A DNA stretch of 34,132 nt. It comes from Candidatus Daviesbacteria bacterium RIFCSPHIGHO2_02_FULL_43_12 (GTDB lineage Bacteria > Patescibacteriota > Microgenomatia > Daviesbacterales > UBA10151). The stretch is from NCBI GenBank assembly GCA_001776775.1, contig MFDD01000003.1, forward strand, positions 1-34,132, written 5' to 3'. Of the stretch, positions 1,325-33,744 are shown in pieces (position 1 is the stretch's first letter; each line of letters starts with the position of its first letter). Under the pieces are notes generated by a model, which was not told the origin of the DNA, made no database searches, and saw only the letters and a program-made list of their open reading frames with translations. A program made the translations under genes and the position numbers.

Positions 1325-1364
1325 ACCCCGATCCAACCTGTCCCGACTATGTTGGGATCGGGGT
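1325..1364. repeat. 40-bp palindromic repeat, copy 1 (intergenic)
   Basis: ACCCCGATCC at 1325-1334 and GGATCGGGGT at 1355-1364 form a perfect 10-bp inverted repeat. Inside it TCCCGAC (1341-1347) can pair with GTTGGGA (1351-1357) as an alternative hairpin. The central AACCTGTCCCGACT and both ends are nearly identical to the copy at 8884-8923, which lies inside a tRNA-dihydrouridine synthase gene. It sits between two minus-strand genes and has no clear T-run, so a dispersed repeat fits better than a terminator. Confidence 0.85.
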
Positions 1365-7954: not shown

Positions 7955-8533
7955 ATGATCAGAAATATCGAAGGTGTCAGTTTCTTAAATATGTCGGATA
8001 CCACTCGCCTGGATGCTCCTGTGTTACAAAGAAATTTAGACCAGGTCAGGCCGGAACTTCGACAAGATCTGATTAATGACTATCGGAATGGTGAGGTAAG
8101 TGCAGACGATTTGGCAAACAAAGCCTTTATTAGACAAGAAGAGGATGACGATGAAGTTGCCTATCATGAGGCAGCCCATTATGTGGTCGGGGGCGGGATT
8201 AGTGCCACTATAATTCCCAGTAGCGAAGCTCGCGGTTTAACAATCCTCCGACCTGATCCAATACGCACTTTAGGTGATATAGAGAAAGTTATGGTCACCT
8301 GTTACGCCGGAGGCATGGGATCGGAAATGAGAGGTCGAGGTGCAAGAGGGTGTGGTTCGGATATAGGCCAGGCCCGTTTCCTAGCTCGTCTTCACTCGCG
8401 ATTTAGCGGAAGAGACCCCCGAGCACTGGAACAAGCCGCAGAAATGAGTGCCCGATGCGAGGTACACTCCAGAAGATATCAGATAGAAAATATTGCCCAT
8501 AAATTACGCAGGCGAAAAACTATCCGTGGTTAA
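7955..8533 (+). CDS. Stand-alone M41 (FtsH)-like metallopeptidase domain
   Basis: This 192-residue protein resembles the peptidase half of FtsH without its AAA ATPase or membrane anchor. AYHEAAHYVVGGG (69-81) contains the zinc motif HEAAH at 71-75, with Glu72 as catalytic base. ATIIPSSEARGLTIL (84-98) parallels the TIIPRG...LG strand of FtsH. GSDIGQARFLAR (134-145) parallels the ND-LEQAT helix, with Asp136 as the likely third zinc ligand. This is a pattern comparison from memory. TAAACT lies six bases before the ATG. The end overlaps the convergent dus gene by 14 bases. The substrate and any ATPase partner are unknown. Confidence 0.7.
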   Translation: MIRNIEGVSFLNMSDTTRLDAPVLQRNLDQVRPELRQDLINDYRNGEVSADDLANKAFIRQEEDDDEVAYHEAAHYVVGGGISATIIPSSEARGLTILRPDPIRTLGDIEKVMVTCYAGGMGSEMRGRGARGCGSDIGQARFLARLHSRFSGRDPRALEQAAEMSARCEVHSRRYQIENIAHKLRRRKTIRG

Positions 8534-9545
8534 AGTTATGAATAACTGATTCTACCTCTTCCAAGTTTTTGGTCTCCATTAGATTAACTCGTAGCTCACT
8601 AGCCCCCTCGAAGTCCGAGGCGTAGATCTTAAAGAACTTTTTTAGAATGTTAAAATTTTTAGTGTTACCCCATCGGGCGACAAACATCTGAGTGTGCCGA
8701 GTAAGCAGATCCATCCTCTCTTGAACAGATAAATCAGCATTAGTTTTAGCTGGATCAAAGACAAAAATATTTTGAAAAACCCCTCGGCCGATCATAATTC
8801 CGTCTACGCCAGACGTCTTAGCTTTGACTAATCCATCCTGGTAACTTATAACATCCCCATTTCCTATAATTACGGTTTCCTTGACCCCGATTAAACCTGT
8901 CCCGACTTTGTCGGGATCGGGGTTGACGCTGGACTCTTGCGACTTGTCTCTCAAGGCAACCGCCTTAGCAATTTCATCCCAATGTGCCGGAACCTTAGAT
9001 TGCTCTTTGACAGTTCGCCCATGAACGGTCAGGGCATCAAGCTTTAAGCTAAGTAAAAAACCAATCCATTCTTCTGTGGCGATCTCTTTGTCTCCAATCC
9101 GAGTTTTAACACTAACAGGAATTTTTTCAGCTGCTCCTTCTCTTGTTGCCAATATAATCTCCTTAGCTCGCTCTGGCTCGCGGATTAACCCTCCGCAACT
9201 GCCAGACCTAACTACTTTACTAACCGGACAACCCATATTAATATCGATTCCATCAAATCCCATCTCTACTAACATCTGCGCGGTTTTAAAATAATTCTCC
9301 GGATTCTGGCCCCAAATTTGGGCTACGATCGGATGTTCATTTGGCTCAAAGAGCAGCCTAGGCATCAACTTGTCTTGACCCTTGGAGTTTAATCCGTCAA
9401 CATTGGTAAACTCGGTAAATAACACATCGGGCTTGGCGGTAGTGCAGATCAGCTGGCGAAAAACCACGTCAGTGACATCGTCCATCGGAGCGAGGACAAA
9501 AAATGGTTTGTTGTTTTTTTTAAGTTTCTGCCAAAAATTGGACAT
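8520..9545 (-). CDS. dus: tRNA-dihydrouridine synthase
   Basis: This 341-residue flavoenzyme reduces uridines in the tRNA D-loop to dihydrouridine. The TIM-barrel motifs are clear: APMDDVTDVVFR (19-30), DINMGCPVSK (101-110) with catalytic Cys106, HGRT (175-178), GNGDV (228-232) and GIMIGRG (249-255). Residues about 206-222 (VNPDPDKVGTGLIGVK) are encoded by the palindromic repeat at 8884-8923. They lie just before the IIGNGDV strand, at a site where I recall homologues having only a short loop. The reading frame stays open through the repeat. TATAAT lies 11 bases before the ATG. Confidence 0.95.
   Translation of the reverse strand: MSNFWQKLKKNNKPFFVLAPMDDVTDVVFRQLICTTAKPDVLFTEFTNVDGLNSKGQDKLMPRLLFEPNEHPIVAQIWGQNPENYFKTAQMLVEMGFDGIDINMGCPVSKVVRSGSCGGLIREPERAKEIILATREGAAEKIPVSVKTRIGDKEIATEEWIGFLLSLKLDALTVHGRTVKEQSKVPAHWDEIAKAVALRDKSQESSVNPDPDKVGTGLIGVKETVIIGNGDVISYQDGLVKAKTSGVDGIMIGRGVFQNIFVFDPAKTNADLSVQERMDLLTRHTQMFVARWGNTKNFNILKKFFKIYASDFEGASELRVNLMETKNLEEVESVIHNFNHG
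8884..8923. repeat. 40-bp palindromic repeat, copy 2 (in frame inside dus)
   Basis: ACCCCGAT (8884-8891) pairs with ATCGGGGT (8916-8923), and TCCCGAC (8900-8906) pairs perfectly with GTCGGGA (8910-8916). The sequence matches the intergenic copy at 1325-1364 over about 40 bases with few differences. Here it encodes an extra loop of the enzyme without breaking the frame. Confidence 0.9.
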
Positions 9546-11250: not shown

Positions 11251-12882
11251 CTATTTTAAAGATTTGAATTTGCCAATCAGAGTATTAGTCGAAGAATCAT
11301 GGTCGAGTTTGGATTTTGCATCTTTCAGCTCAGACAGTATTTTTAGAGCCAAAACTTTACCCAGCTCTACGCCCCATTGATCAAAAGAGTCGATATCCCA
11401 AATCGCTCCTTGGACAAAAATCTTATGTTCATACAAAGCGATTAGTTCACCTAATGTTTTTGGAGTAAGTTTAGGAAGCAAGATAGTATTGGTCGGTCGA
11501 TTACCGAGAAAAGTCTTATAGGGCTTTTCATCATCTTTGCCAAAAGCCAAAGCTTCAGTTTGGGCAAAAAGGTTGGCCATTAATTTAAGATGATGGTCAC
11601 TCACCTTATTAATCGGTTCAATAAAACCGATAAAATCCGCTGGGACAATCTTGGTCCCTTGATGAAGCAGCTGATAAAAAGCATGCTGACCATTGGTTCC
11701 CGGTTCTCCCCAGATAATTGGTCCTGTCTGGTAATCTACCCTCACTCCTGCACCGGTTACAGACTTACCATTACTCTCCATCTCGGCTTGCTGCAGATAG
11801 GCCGGGAACCGATGTAAGTACTGTTCGTAAGGCAAGATTGCCTGAGTCTGAAACTCAAAAAAATTGTTATACCAAATTTCTATAACAGCCATGAGCACGG
11901 GGAGATTTTTCTCCAGGGACGCAGTTCGGAAATGTTCGTCAATAGCACAAAACCCCTCCAGCATCTGGTCAAAATGGTCAGGACCGATGGCGATCATCAA
12001 GGATAAACCGATAGCCGAACAAAGAGAATACCTACCCCCCACAAAATCCCAGAATTCAAACATATTCTCCGGGTCAATCCCGAACTCCTTAACCTTTTCG
12101 ATGTTTGTCGAAAGTGCAACGAAATGCTTAGCAACAGGATCTGATTCATGATTCATGATTTTGGATTCATGAATCTTGGATCGCGTATCTTGAATCTGAT
12201 AATGATTTACTATCCACTTTTTCGCCGTCTGGGCATTGGTCATTGTCTCCTGGGTAGTAAAGGTCTTGGAAGCGACAATAAACAAGGTCTCCTCAGGGTT
12301 TAAGTCACGAGTTGATTCTACAAAATGAGTTGAGTCGATATTCGAAATAAATCGCACTGTGAGGTCTCGATTGGAATAAGCTTTGAGCGCCTCGTAAGCC
12401 ATGACTGGACCCAGGTCAGATCCACCAATCCCGATATTCACGACATTGCGAATCGTCTTCCCACTGTAACCTGTAACCTGTCCTCTATGCACTTTACCAG
12501 CAAACTGGCGCATTTTGCTGCGTACTTTTTTAATCTCGTTCATTATATTTTTACCGTCAACCAAAATAGGACGATCGGACAGGTTACGCAAAGCTACATG
12601 CAAGACCGGCCGATTTTCTGAAATATTAATCTTTTCCCCTTCAAACATCGCCTGGATCTTGGCTGGAAGACTGACAGCTTTAGCCAGTTCGAATAATAAA
12701 TCCAAGGTTTGCTGAGTAATCCGATTTTTAGAATAATCTAAATATAAATCTTCGACCTGAAGATTAAATTTATCTCCTCTTTGGGGGTCGTCTTTAAAAA
12801 GAGATCGCAAATGGCGGTCTCTTATTTCATTAAAGTGCAAATTTAAATCCTGCCACTCGGGTAAATGGGTCAGTTTTGACAT
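11251..12882 (-). CDS. pgi: Glucose-6-phosphate isomerase
   Basis: This 543-residue enzyme interconverts glucose 6-phosphate and fructose 6-phosphate. Family motifs are [12 protein letters not shown] (148-159), [13 protein letters not shown] (205-217), [14 protein letters not shown], the catalytic Glu in MESNGKSV, the catalytic His in NGQHAFYQ and the C-terminal Lys in WGVELGK. Residues 229-247 are encoded by eight 7-bp units (12143-12198). They form an insertion of about 16 residues between the TNAQTAKKW helix and [10 protein letters not shown] compared with the E. coli protein as I recall it. Its promoter is CATACT six bases before the ATG with TTGCAG 17 bp above. Confidence 0.95.
12143..12198. 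repeat. Heptamer tract (8 units) in frame inside pgi
   Basis: Reading the plus strand, the units are GATTCAT, GATTCAT, GATTTTG, GATTCAT, GAATCTT, GGATCGC, GTATCTT and GAATCTG. These are 56 bases of degenerate 7-bp periodicity. They encode Pgi residues 229-247, including [17 protein letters not shown] second short tract (12463-12483, ACTGTAA, CCTGTAA, CCTGTCC) lies in the same gene but at a family-conserved length. Confidence 0.85.
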
Positions 12883-23359: not shown

Positions 23360-24613
23360 TCACCTTTTATAATATTTTTTGCCTTTAAGTTGACTGGGCA
23401 GCAGGTCTTGGTCGGTATACATCTGATAATCTTGACCGTAGCCGATCTCTTTCATCAATTTAGTTGGAGCATTACGCAGATCAAAAGGGATTGGTAAGTT
23501 GCCATATTTTTGCACATCCCCTAATGCTTCGAAGTAGCCGTTATAGCTGGAGCGGTCTTTTTTGGCACTGGCTAAGTAAGTTACTCCGTGGGCTAAATTA
23601 ATTTGACATTCCGGGTAACCGATTATTTCACAAGCCCTAAAAACTTCATTCGCGACTACCAAAGCAGTCGGTTGAGCCTGTCCAATATCTTCCGAAGCAA
23701 AGATCACCATCCGTCTGGCGATAAACAATGGATCCTCTCCCGCTTCGACCATTCTAGCCAAATAGTACAAAGCAGCATCCACATTCGAAGCTCTCATCGA
23801 TTTAATAAAAGCGGAGATGGTGTTGTAATGTTCTTCTCCTCCCTTGTCGTAAGCCAGAGCTCGTTTTTGCAAAGCCTCTTCAATGATAATCTTGGACAAG
23901 AAGACCTTTTTACCGATTGCTTGATCAAAGCTACCAATGGTAACCGCCACTTCCAAGGCGTTAAGTAAAATCCGAGAATCCCCATTGGATCCTTCGATCA
24001 ATAGGTCCTGGGCGCCTTTTTCAAACTTTACTTTGTACTGGCCCAAACCTTTGGTTTTATCTTTAAGCGCCCTCTTGATTACTTCTGCTAGCTCTTCCTT
24101 GGAGAGCTGGTTGAGAACAAAAACTCTGGTCCGAGAAAGTAGTGCTCCGATGACTTCGAAGGAAGGATTTTCCGTAGTAGCTCCGATTAAAATGATCGTA
24201 CCGTTTTCTACAAAGGGTAAAAAAGCATCTTGTTGGGATTTACTAAACCGATGAATTTCGTCTATGAAGATAATGGTTTTTTTATTACTGCTCTCTTCGT
24301 TCGCAGAAAAAAGATTATTGTTCGAGGGAGTCCGAGAACTACTGCGACTGGCAAAGAGATCCTGAAAGATTTTTTTGAGTTCGGCGATGCCAGTATTAAC
24401 AGCTGAAAATTCCAAAAAATCTGCATTGACTTCATTGGCAATAACTCGAGCCAAAGTAGTCTTGCCCACTCCTGGAGGACCCCAGAGGATCATGGAAAAC
24501 ACCTGACCCGACTTGATCGATTTAAAAAGCAGCTTGTCTGAGGACAGGATATGTTGCTGCCCAACTATCTCTGCTAGTGTTTCTGGACGCATTCGATCAG
24601 CTAGTGGTTGCAT
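23360..24613 (-). CDS. rarA: Replication-associated recombination protein A
   Basis: This 417-residue AAA+ ATPase (RarA/MgsA) acts at stalled replication forks. Motifs are Walker [10 protein letters not shown] (45-53), Walker [11 protein letters not shown] (114-123), sensor 1 [11 protein letters not shown] and the arginine finger in ALLSRTRVF. The C-terminal RarA domain is complete ([21 protein letters not shown] and onward). Residues about 89-112, Ser/Asn-rich ([12 protein letters not shown]), form an insertion of roughly 16 residues between sensor-loop helix and Walker B compared with E. coli RarA as I recall it. They are encoded by a nested palindrome. The start has no clear leaderless box. 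Confidence 0.94.
24301..24347. repeat. Nested palindrome in frame inside rarA
   Basis: TCGCAG (24301-24306) pairs with CTGCGA (24342-24347), and GTTCGAGG (24320-24327) pairs with CCGAGAAC (24332-24339) at six of eight positions. It encodes RarA residues about 89-105. Confidence 0.55.
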
Positions 24614-27381: not shown

Positions 27382-27999
27382 TTAATACACATTCCGACCT
27401 TCAAGGGCCCGAGTTAAAGTTGATTGATCGGCATACTCCAAGTCCCCACCCACCGGCAACCCTCTGGCGATTCTAGTGACTTTGAGCCCAAGCGGACGGA
27501 TCAGCCTTTCAATATACATCGCAGTTGCTTCACCTTCCATTGTTGGGTTGGTGGCTAAAATGACTTCTTTAACAGCCACTAGTCCTGAGCCTGCCGAAGG
27601 ATTTTTTAATCTAGGGAGCAGCTCGTTGATGTGTAATTCCTCTGGCCCGATGTTTTCCAGTGGCGAGATCGAACCATGCAAAATATGATAGAGGCCTGTA
27701 AAATTTGCCCTTTCCAAAGCCAGTACATCAAGAGGGTCTTCGACGACGGCAATGATCTCTTGATTTCTGCTTAGATCGGTATCTATCTCGCAAGGATCAT
27801 GTTCTGAGATATTAAAACAGACCGAGCAGAGAACGGTCTTTTCTTTAAGGTCAACAGCCGCCCTAGCCAATTTTTCTGCTTCTTCTTTGGGAGCGTGAAG
27901 TAAATAATAAGTCAGCCTCTGGGCAGTTTTTGGGCCAATACCGGGCAGTCTTTCAAAACTTTCTATTAAATCTCTAACTACTTTGGGGATCGTGGCCAT
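27382..27999 (-). CDS. recR: Recombination protein RecR
   Basis: This 205-residue protein acts with RecO/RecF in loading RecA at gaps. The N-terminal HhH motif is LPGIGPKTAQRL (18-29). The zinc finger shows Cys58, Cys61 and Cys70, but the usual fourth Cys (in CxIC) is missing: the sequence is PCEIDTD. The Toprim domain carries VVEDPLDVLALE and ILATNPTMEGEATAMY. Residues 133-140 (NPSAGSGL) are an insertion before VKEVILATNPT, encoded by a CCTTCGGCAGGCTCAGG-type repeat. TAATAT lies eight bases before the ATG. ybaB lies immediately upstream, the usual arrangement. Confidence 0.94.
   Translation of the reverse strand: MATIPKVVRDLIESFERLPGIGPKTAQRLTYYLLHAPKEEAEKLARAAVDLKEKTVLCSVCFNISEHDPCEIDTDLSRNQEIIAVVEDPLDVLALERANFTGLYHILHGSISPLENIGPEELHINELLPRLKNPSAGSGLVAVKEVILATNPTMEGEATAMYIERLIRPLGLKVTRIARGLPVGGDLEYADQSTLTRALEGRNVY
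27581..27603. repeat. CCTTCGGCAGGCTCAGG-type repeat in frame inside recR
   Basis: On the minus strand the core reads CCTTCGGCAGGCTCAGGACT. The ends AGTCCT (27581-27586) and AGGATT (27598-27603) form a near-palindrome. Similar CCTTCGRCAGGCTCAGG sequences are common dispersed repeats in many bacterial genomes. Here it encodes RecR residues 133-140. Confidence 0.7.
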
Positions 28000-32046: not shown

Positions 32047-33744
32047 CTAGACCCCGTCAGAGCTGAAGATTTCGGAGGCGATGCGGATAATTTCATCGTC
32101 AGCAGCAATCTCCACATTTTGCAGCTCTTCTAGTCTAGCTGGACGTTTGCCAATCACTGTTTTTACCCGCGTAACCTTGCCCAAAACATCGGATAAAACA
32201 GACTCTAGTAGAGCCTGGGACTTAGGAGTTTCCAGAATTCGTTGATGAAAAGCGTAAGGCACTTCAATTAAGACTCGTCCGTTATCACATTCGAGCACCT
32301 TGACCGAACGGAGCATTGCTTCCAGAGAATAATTGTTTGGTCTGATGGTTTCTAAAATATAGTTCCATTTGTCAATAATTAGTGCAAGGTCTGAGGAGAT
32401 AGCGATGCTATCAGACGAAACAGAGGTCTGGGGCCCAATCACGACCATCTTGATTTCTGCACTGGGTAAGGTATCATCCCGACCAGAATGTTCGAGAGCT
32501 GACAGAGGTTCGGAAAGAGATCGCTTCGTCTCTTCGCTTCTCGTGATGACGACACTAGACTCTTCTCGCTTTTGACTCTCTCGACTGTGAACTGTGAACT
32601 GTGAACCGTGAACTCCCGCCGTGCTTTCTATAATCGCCAGCTCCAGTGGAAGAGAAGGGATTGAGGTAAATCTCATCTGCTCAAAAGCCTCTTGGAACGT
32701 ACTCAAACAAAAAACTAACTGCTCTACTGAGGAGATCTGAGCTAATGCTTGAAGAGTGATTAGTTTCTCTTGGCCAACACTTTCGACCACATCGGTTAAG
32801 CCGTGTTTTAAAAACAGGACCAGCCTTAGTGTATCCATTAAACTCAAGATCCACTCTTTCAAGTTTGGTCCACTCTCAGACAGTTTTAAGAAAAGTTCTA
32901 GGCTTAAGTGAGCATCCTTTTTCAAAATAAGTTCGAGTAGTTTAGACACATCCTCAAAATTTCCTCCCTGAATAGTATCTCCGACCAAAGACGCGGTAAT
33001 AGTTTCTCCTTGAGACGCTAGTTGGTCTAAGATCTTTAAACAGTCCCGAAAACTGCCATCGGACTTTTTGGCAATTACCGAGATTGCTTCATCTTCTATT
33101 TTTAATCCTTCTTTTTGAACAACATGTTGGATCACCTTCATCAAATCCTCCTGAGAAGCCAGCTGAAAATCTAAACGAGATACCCGAGATAAAATAGTGG
33201 CGGGGATTTTATGAGCTTCGGTGGTCGCCAATATAAATAAAACGTGTGCAGGAGGCTCTTCTAGGGTCTTTAGAAGCGCGTTGAAGGCTTCGGTCGTTAA
33301 CATATGCACCTCGTCTATGATATAGACCTTTTTGGAAGCGCTAGCAGGTGAGAGTTTGATATTTTCCCGTAGTGCGCGGATATCATCTATGCCTCTATTG
33401 GAAGCAGCATCAATCTCAATTAGATCCAAGTTTGACCCGTCGGTAATGGACAGACATTGGGAACAGAGGTTGCAGGGAACAGAGTCTTCAGCTTTCAGAT
33501 CCGTTTCGCTGTCAGCTGTCAGACTGTCTGATGTCTGATGACTGATGACTGATGACTTCTCACAATTGACCATCTTAGCTAAAATTCGAGCTGTTGAAGT
33601 TTTACCAGTGCCTCTGGGACCACATAAAAGGTAGGCCTGAGCCAGTTTTTTTTCTTGAAAAGCTTTTTGCAGCAGTGAGCTGATGGCTCCTTGACCAAAC
33701 AATTCTGACAGAGTTTGTGGACGATATTTACGGTAGAAAACCAT
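32047..33744 (-). CDS. dnaX: DNA polymerase III subunit gamma/tau with repeat-derived insertions
   Basis: This 565-residue clamp-loader ATPase has Walker A GPRGTGKTS (42-50), a zinc finger with Cys61, Cys91, Cys94 and Cys97, Walker B with DEVHML, and sensor motifs (ATTEAHKIPATILSR). Cys61 to Cys91 is 30 residues, against 9 in E. coli as I recall it; the extra 21 residues hold a seven-unit heptamer tract. The linker between domain III and the C-terminal domain (about 378-425) is also largely encoded by repeats: a heptamer tract and a GTCATCACGAGAAGCGAAG-type element. The C-terminal tau-like domain (about 440-540) is present. Upstream, a further heptamer tract lies in the promoter region. Confidence 0.95.
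   Translation of the reverse strand: MVFYRKYRPQTLSELFGQGAISSLLQKAFQEKKLAQAYLLCGPRGTGKTSTARILAKMVNCEKSSVISHQTSDSLTADSETDLKAEDSVPCNLCSQCLSITDGSNLDLIEIDAASNRGIDDIRALRENIKLSPASASKKVYIIDEVHMLTTEAFNALLKTLEEPPAHVLFILATTEAHKIPATILSRVSRLDFQLASQEDLMKVIQHVVQKEGLKIEDEAISVIAKKSDGSFRDCLKILDQLASQGETITASLVGDTIQGGNFEDVSKLLELILKKDAHLSLELFLKLSESGPNLKEWILSLMDTLRLVLFLKHGLTDVVESVGQEKLITLQALAQISSVEQLVFCLSTFQEAFEQMRFTSIPSLPLELAIIESTAGVHGSQFTVHSRESQKREESSVVITRSEETKRSLSEPLSALEHSGRDDTLPSAEIKMVVIGPQTSVSSDSIAISSDLALIIDKWNYILETIRPNNYSLEAMLRSVKVLECDNGRVLIEVPYAFHQRILETPKSQALLESVLSDVLGKVTRVKTVIGKRPARLEELQNVEIAADDEIIRIASEIFSSDGV
32517..32552. repeat. GTCATNNCGAG-type element inside dnaX
   Basis: On the minus strand the sequence contains GTCATCACGAGAAGCGAAG then GACGAAGCGATCTC. 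It resembles the GTCATTGCGAGNNGCGAAGCGACGAAGCAATC family of dispersed repeats known from many bacterial genomes. It encodes DnaX residues about 398-409 (VVITRSEETKRSL region). Confidence 0.6.
32583..32610. repeat. Heptamer tract (4 units) inside the dnaX linker
   Basis: GACTGTG, AACTGTG, AACTGTG and AACCGTG follow one another on the plus strand. They encode DnaX residues about 379-388 (VHGSQFTVHS). Confidence 0.75.
33508..33556. repeat. Heptamer tract (7 units) inside the dnaX zinc finger
   Basis: GCTGTCA, GCTGTCA, GACTGTC, TGATGTC, TGATGAC, TGATGAC and TGATGAC follow one another on the plus strand. They encode DnaX residues 63-79 (SSVISHQTSDSLTADS) between the first and second zinc cysteines. 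Confidence 0.85.

Follow-up and report, generated by a model that had tools for sequence, protein, structure and literature searches.

A probable copy of an ultra-small, mobile-like hairpin element in frame within a tRNA-dihydrouridine synthase gene of a Microgenomatia-type bacterium

The window, meaning the whole stretch of 34,132 nucleotides that was analysed, carries on its minus strand a gene whose product is a bona fide tRNA-dihydrouridine synthase (Dus), the host gene named in the preliminary description of this DNA. The product matched Pfam family PF01207 with an E value of 3.5e-47, solved Dus enzymes were its best structural matches in Foldseek, and phmmer led to solved Dus structures as well. 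The nearest named homologues belong to Microgenomates lineages, e.g., Daviesbacteria, Levyibacteriota, Woesebacteria, and Amesbacteria, which points to a Patescibacterium of that class as the host. The features that are referred to below are as follows:

8523 to 9545, minus strand: Dus host gene, 341 aa, stop codon at 8520-8522 (Pfam PF01207, phmmer, Foldseek, AlphaFold)
8885 to 8922, minus strand: long (nested) form of the element, 38-nt core; with one repeat it codes the 14 residues NPDPDKVGTGLIGV, residues 208-221 of Dus
8881 to 8884, no strand: direct repeat TTGA, copy one of the presumed 4-nt target-site duplication
8923 to 8926, no strand: direct repeat TTGA, copy two of the presumed 4-nt target-site duplication
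8895 to 8915, minus strand: inner 21-nt hairpin, ACCTGTCCCGACTTTGTCGGG on the plus strand; delimited by comparison of long with short copies, bounds ambiguous by a few bases
8927 to 8950, minus strand: GACTCTTG-type heptamer-like repeat adjoining the element; codes SQESS, about 4 residues of which relatives lack
1326 to 1363, minus strand: second long-form copy, intergenic, with TCAA direct repeats at 1322-1325 and 1364-1367

The near-identity of the palindrome at 8884-8923 to the intergenic copy at 1325-1364, which had been noticed earlier, amounts to 36 of 40 bases on the same strand. Its description as a 40-bp palindrome, on the other hand, was too simple: the core measures 38 nt and forms a hairpin (-21.9 kcal/mol, z -3.6) in which 9 nt bulge out on one side, and the TTGA repeats lie outside this core. 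In its short form, the element consists of 17 palindromic nt, CCCCGATNNNATCGGGG; a further 21-nt hairpin inside this short palindrome yields the long form with its 38-nt core. All copies end in CCCC/GGGG adjoining the sequence TNNA.

In Dus, a helix precedes the long-form element and the IIGNGDV strand follows it, and the insert peptide VNPDPDKVGTGLIGVK stands directly before IIGNGDV, both peptide and placement being as originally given. The same stretch reads LRDK-ISP-KTLIIGNGDV or MRDKLKSKTLIMGNGDV in the related genomes G011 and G007, whereas in the window it reads LRDKSQESSVNPDPDKVGTGLIGVKETVIIGNGDV and is 18 residues longer. Fourteen of the extra residues derive from the element plus one repeat, and about four (SQES) derive from the adjoining GACTCTTG-type repeat, which (as part 49-66 of the query) recurs at C14:77348, C14:65795, and C8:54407 of the genome. 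When about 75 Dus homologues were aligned, none of the other proteins contained the insert residues. Relatives lack them, G007 and G011 being examples, and the opposite case, a distant Dus with the same residues encoded by nonpalindromic DNA, did not occur among these homologues. Two Dus proteins, L028 and L041, have inserts at the same loop that are unrelated to the element, so this loop is permissive for insertions. We considered whether the same palindrome underlies these two inserts and rejected this, as their sequence differs and a strong palindrome is absent from both.

The AlphaFold model of Dus has a mean pLDDT of 93.3, and values below 50 occur only at residues 214-220, within the insert. 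The loop that contains it runs between helix 189-207 and strand 225-229. The insert is thus predicted to form one disordered, floppy extra loop, and structure searches indicated that the remainder of the protein keeps the Dus fold. All residues that are invariant in 27 Dus proteins were retained, including C106, K147, R149, H175, N229, and G230. The enzyme likely works with its insert.

Further copies were sought in the genome to which the window belongs (G000; 1,124,621 bases in 15 contigs, rated 100% complete). Exact matches numbered eight for the short form and four for the long form, and all 12 lay between perfect 4-nt direct repeats of the type TNNA, in the variants TTCA, TAGA, TCAA, TTGA, and TGAA. 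An exact 4-nt repeat was also present at three of six cores with one mismatch. No peaks were seen in this genome at neighbouring repeat or core sizes. Scrambling the arm gave no exact palindromes in 14 of 15 draws and two in the remaining one, compared with eight for the true arm. A generic scan of G000 and G011 for any palindrome with a 4-nt repeat revealed no other core family built in this way. Altogether, 16 copies in the genome possess the exact repeat (eight exact, four long, three with one mismatch, and one with two mismatches). Seven of these are located in open reading frames (ORFs) and nine between genes or at gene edges. Since about 93% of the sequence lies in ORFs by a crude call, this placement suggests that insertions in genes have mostly, though not always, been purged.

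The direct repeats were evaluated in a larger sample. Among 42 copies from this genome, related genomes, and viral contigs, exactly four matching flanking bases were found at 22, whereas dealing the flanks anew gave 3.3 on average and at most 10 in 10,000 shuffles; almost no copy had a repeat of just 3 or just 5 nt. Class-wide, with flank pairs taken from among the matches listed, identical TNNA sequences occurred on both sides of 64 of the 75 T..A-flanked copies, the other 11 having no exact repeat. The corresponding null values were a mean of 18 (maximum, 33) with flanks dealt anew and a mean of 36 (maximum, 46) with flanks oriented first. The 64 repeats fall into six sequence classes in which left and right flanks covary. 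TCAA/TTGA accounts for 47 of them, and part of the 4-nt repeat could belong to the element itself. This is the pattern expected of a target-site duplication.

Among 374 sampled genomes of the class, 60 contained the short palindrome with terminal A and T, compared with none for the reversed control. Its distribution is patchy, with at most 10 copies per genome. Of 348 genomes sampled from the phylum outside the class, a single one had the T..A-flanked form. Viral contigs gave nine palindrome matches, some of them terminator-like. In viral contig IMGVR_UViG_3300025015_000021, a copy (L272, position 7891) has a perfect TTGA duplication, and a second copy on the same contig (L271) has none. The element might be carried by phages.

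Inspection of this genome and its relatives placed the family in at least 13 ORFs. Ten of thirteen copies use one common reading frame, coding (V/I)(N/D)PD-x-IGV(N/D/K), and another frame codes TPIKSG. Both frames are soluble and stop-free. The host genes are as follows:

DNA primase DnaG, own genome: VNPDLIGVK
Fmt, own genome: VNPDIIGVN
Pilin-like protein, own genome: VNPDYIGVN (named from its look, no Pfam match)
Isoleucyl-type tRNA synthetase (IleRS), own genome: VNPGYIGVN
RpoB tail, own genome: VDPDSVGVD
MurB-like protein, C terminus, own genome: other frame
Dus, own genome: VNPDPDKVGTGLIGVK
Ribonucleotide reductase (RNR), relative: VDPDSIGVD
Nucleotidyl transferase (NTP transferase), relative: VDPDLIGVD
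DnaE, relative: FDPDSIGVD
UvrD, C terminus, relative: IDPDLIGVD
RecJ, relative
SpoU methylase, relative: TPIKSG

In addition, the core is present in DNA polymerase I of G012, where it lacks an exact repeat and lies inside a larger insert. Empty sites were deduced from proteins of about 50 to 80% identity. The SpoU copy makes its protein exactly 7 residues longer than homologues in three genomes; an endonuclease IV-like protein with a variant core is likewise exactly 7 residues longer than its counterpart in G007, and a transglutaminase with a decayed long form is exactly 14 residues longer than that of G011. For DnaG and RecJ, the loop around the copy is variable and the gap differs from exactly 7. 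Dus, Fmt, PolA, and the synthetase contain composite inserts, in which further sequence adjoins the element, and their gap is larger. The residues missing from the Dus homologues and the family copies inside further conserved genes, in this genome and in relatives, together support the in-frame palindromic insertion that had been proposed.

The Fmt loop is occupied by an insert of the NPDIIGV type here (L245) and of the HPEQSEGS type in G011 (C1:996001), two different genera, and by none in G007. PolA likewise contains different repeat-coded inserts, at another loop. The Fmt and PolA loops are recurrent insertion hot spots.

The genome has many further in-frame insertions encoded by repeats: over 153,067 aligned residues, 91 insertions of at least 6 residues were counted in our genome relative to G011 and 43 in the reverse direction. 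Repeat origin was gauged with 15- and 17-mers, as 13-mers are too short for this purpose. Among inserts of 10 to 60 residues, a 15-mer recurred elsewhere in 21 of 41, compared with 23% of control segments; with 17-mers, the values were 10 of 41 and 6.5%. Because the inserts are enriched in repeated sequence, the palindrome is one of several repeat families to which these genes are accessible.

Several other genes of the genome display related peculiarities. DnaX (32050-33744, minus strand) has, at and around 33535-33557, 21 residues (SVISHQTSDSLTADSETDLKA) from a GACTGAT/GTCTGA repeat before the Cys-x2-Cys motif; they are missing from G007 and G011, and the same repeat family occurs in frame in further genes (C11:6750, C12:7645, and PolA at C8:24616). 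RecR (27385-27999, minus strand) shows exactly 7 extra residues within NPSAGSGLVA at 27565-27615 compared with two relatives, coded by TCCTTCGGCAGGCTCAGGA, a distinct palindrome-like repeat. The phosphoglucose isomerase gene contains overlapping inverted and direct ATTCATGA-type repeats at 12139-12200, in frame and coding 19 residues, with related copies at C15:30991, C2:50600, and C2:326391. A RarA-like ATPase (23363-24613) has a serine- and asparagine-rich stretch, of which 19 residues were noted, that is 15 residues longer in total than in G011. At 370387-374199 of contig C2 of G000, a ribonucleotide reductase contains a 412-residue in-frame insert that looks intein-like from its sequence.

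Taken together, these results make it probable that the insert in Dus belongs to a family of ultra-small, nonautonomous, mobile-like hairpin elements of Microgenomatia-type Patescibacteria. Judging from the footprint, insertion at a TNNA site would duplicate its 4 nt, and the net gain would be 17 + 4 = 21 nt (7 codons) for the short form and 38 + 4 = 42 nt (14 codons) for the long form. As both gains are multiples of three, insertions inside genes would never shift the frame, and because both frames are soluble and stop-free, copies may survive wherever a surface loop tolerates 7 or 14 residues. Tolerated selfish DNA would be the default assumption, with no benefit to the host being necessary. 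A cut with a 4-nt stagger would be compatible with the TNNA footprint. A DDE transposase or integrase of the own genome was considered as the source of this cut and was rejected for the two common Pfam kinds searched, DDE_Tnp_1 and rve, whose domains are absent from it. The cutting enzyme would be of a kind outside Y1, DDE_Tnp_1, and rve, would be supplied by a host or phage that co-occurs with these bacteria, or might since have been lost.

Other origins of the copies have to be weighed against mobility of this kind. An in situ origin, by replication slippage and hairpin-templated copying within heptamer-type arrays in a frame-neutral manner, would account for the 21-nt unit being 3 x 7 and for the several copies that lie in or beside heptamer repeats (TTGATCT, GTTCACA, and GACTCTTG), and period-7 tandem runs number 51 in our genome versus 5 in the relative G011. 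However, 60 genomes share the 14 arm bases, which turn up at dozens of unrelated loci between differing 4-nt flanks, whereas slippage carries no one sequence to new places, and the RNR, SpoU, and NTP transferase copies have no heptamer array alongside in the sequence shown. We therefore regard an origin without mobility as improbable. Still less credit can be given to the view that selection placed the hairpins in genes as an RNA or DNA signal, such as an intrinsic terminator, an attenuator, or a protein-binding site. The hairpins are stable, and a few copies with T-runs (C14:11534, L236, and L264) resemble terminators; intergenic copies L235, L236, L238, and L264, with A- and T-rich flanks, look like ordinary ones. 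A G+C-rich hairpin followed by a T-run, which defines an intrinsic terminator, was nevertheless seen only at a few copies, among them intergenic ones in relatives, the T-run being absent from most copies, including that in Dus. Moreover, the copies occupy scattered positions in unrelated housekeeping genes as well as intergenic sites, close relatives lack them, and no Rfam family matched within the window.

Mobilization as REP sequences by a RAYT, a Y1 tyrosine transposase of the IS200/IS605 kind, would agree with short dispersed hairpins that are partly clustered with other repeats, and some REPs do occur inside genes (PMC3733652). Against this, the Y1_Tnp domain (PF01797) is absent from our genome, which is rated complete, while the control search was positive in 6 of 14 genomes, and the copies have no GTAG or CGTC end tag. 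IS200/IS605-type transposition is not known to produce a target duplication, in contrast to the 4-nt direct repeats observed here. An origin of the RAYT/REP kind is thus largely refuted and has only a very slight chance of being correct.

In a more general form, the reading as a mobile-like element would describe a class-wide 17-nt palindrome that inserts at TNNA, duplicates 4 nt, adds seven or fourteen codons, can enter essential genes, is moved by an enzyme of Patescibacteria, their hosts, or phages, and is possibly among the smallest known mobile DNA elements; we give this extended version about even chances. Palindromes that code for protein are on record from Rickettsia, Wolbachia, and a few others. 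The element analysed here is far smaller, its size plus duplication is divisible by three, and it appears to have repeatedly entered core genes of replication, transcription, and translation. Its hosts are ultra-small, streamlined bacteria, in which scant room for selfish DNA would be expected. It supplies 7-residue insertions in loops that are clean and can be counted, and its defined footprint (CCCCGATNNNATCGGGG in TNNA) can be used for seeking the mobilizing enzyme.

We found no descriptions of such elements in Patescibacteria in the open-access literature, and several known systems invite comparison. The small dispersed repeats (SDRs) of Nostoc and relatives, attributed to Elhai et al. in 2008 (Genome Res 18:1484; cited in PMC3116915 and PMC2884548), are reportedly dispersed, hairpin-forming sequences of about 20 to 27 nt; they are said to lie frequently within heptameric tandem repeats, some being self-nested, and past mobility has been proposed for them. 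Measured against this description, the present element is similar as a dispersed hairpin of 21 nt (17 nt plus the 4-nt repeat) and as one that also occurs within heptamer repeats and in a nested long form. To our knowledge, SDRs are known from cyanobacteria, and we know of no in-frame protein insertions or 4-nt TNNA duplications among them. A link of the element with heptamer repeats is possible. The 7-nt tandem excess in our genome, partly inside genes, is reminiscent of the STRR of cyanobacteria and the TAACTGA repeats of Beggiatoaceae; heptanucleotide arrays elsewhere are tandem and mostly intergenic (PMC4679880), whereas here they neighbour the palindrome and are distinct from it.

REPs and REPINs are likewise short dispersed palindromes of bacterial genomes. 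REPs are almost all extragenic (PMC3116915), carry GTAG or CGTC end tags (PMC3733652) that are lacking here, and are tied to the Y1 transposase that our genome does not encode. MITEs are similar in being nonautonomous, with inverted repeats and a target-site duplication, which the exact 4-nt direct repeats would match. They are 70 to 300 bp long (PMC3733652) and have the ends of a parental IS, whereas here the unit is 17 nt and searches for DDE_Tnp_1 and rve revealed no parent.

In behavior, the element is like the Rickettsia and Wolbachia palindromic elements (RPEs and WPEs; PMC2229807, PMC3733652), which, as here, are found both between genes and in frame within conserved housekeeping genes. 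RPEs measure 105 to 146 bp and their target duplication is marked with a question mark (PMC2229807), while the present elements measure 17 or 38 nt, come with a 4-nt TNNA duplication, apparently differ in sequence, and occur in another phylum. The initial comparison with RPEs stands for behavior and falls for size and, presumably, for sequence and membership; over 17 to 38 nt, a sequence match would carry little weight. Host proteins tolerate RPEs, and a guanylate kinase bearing one is active (PMC2229807).
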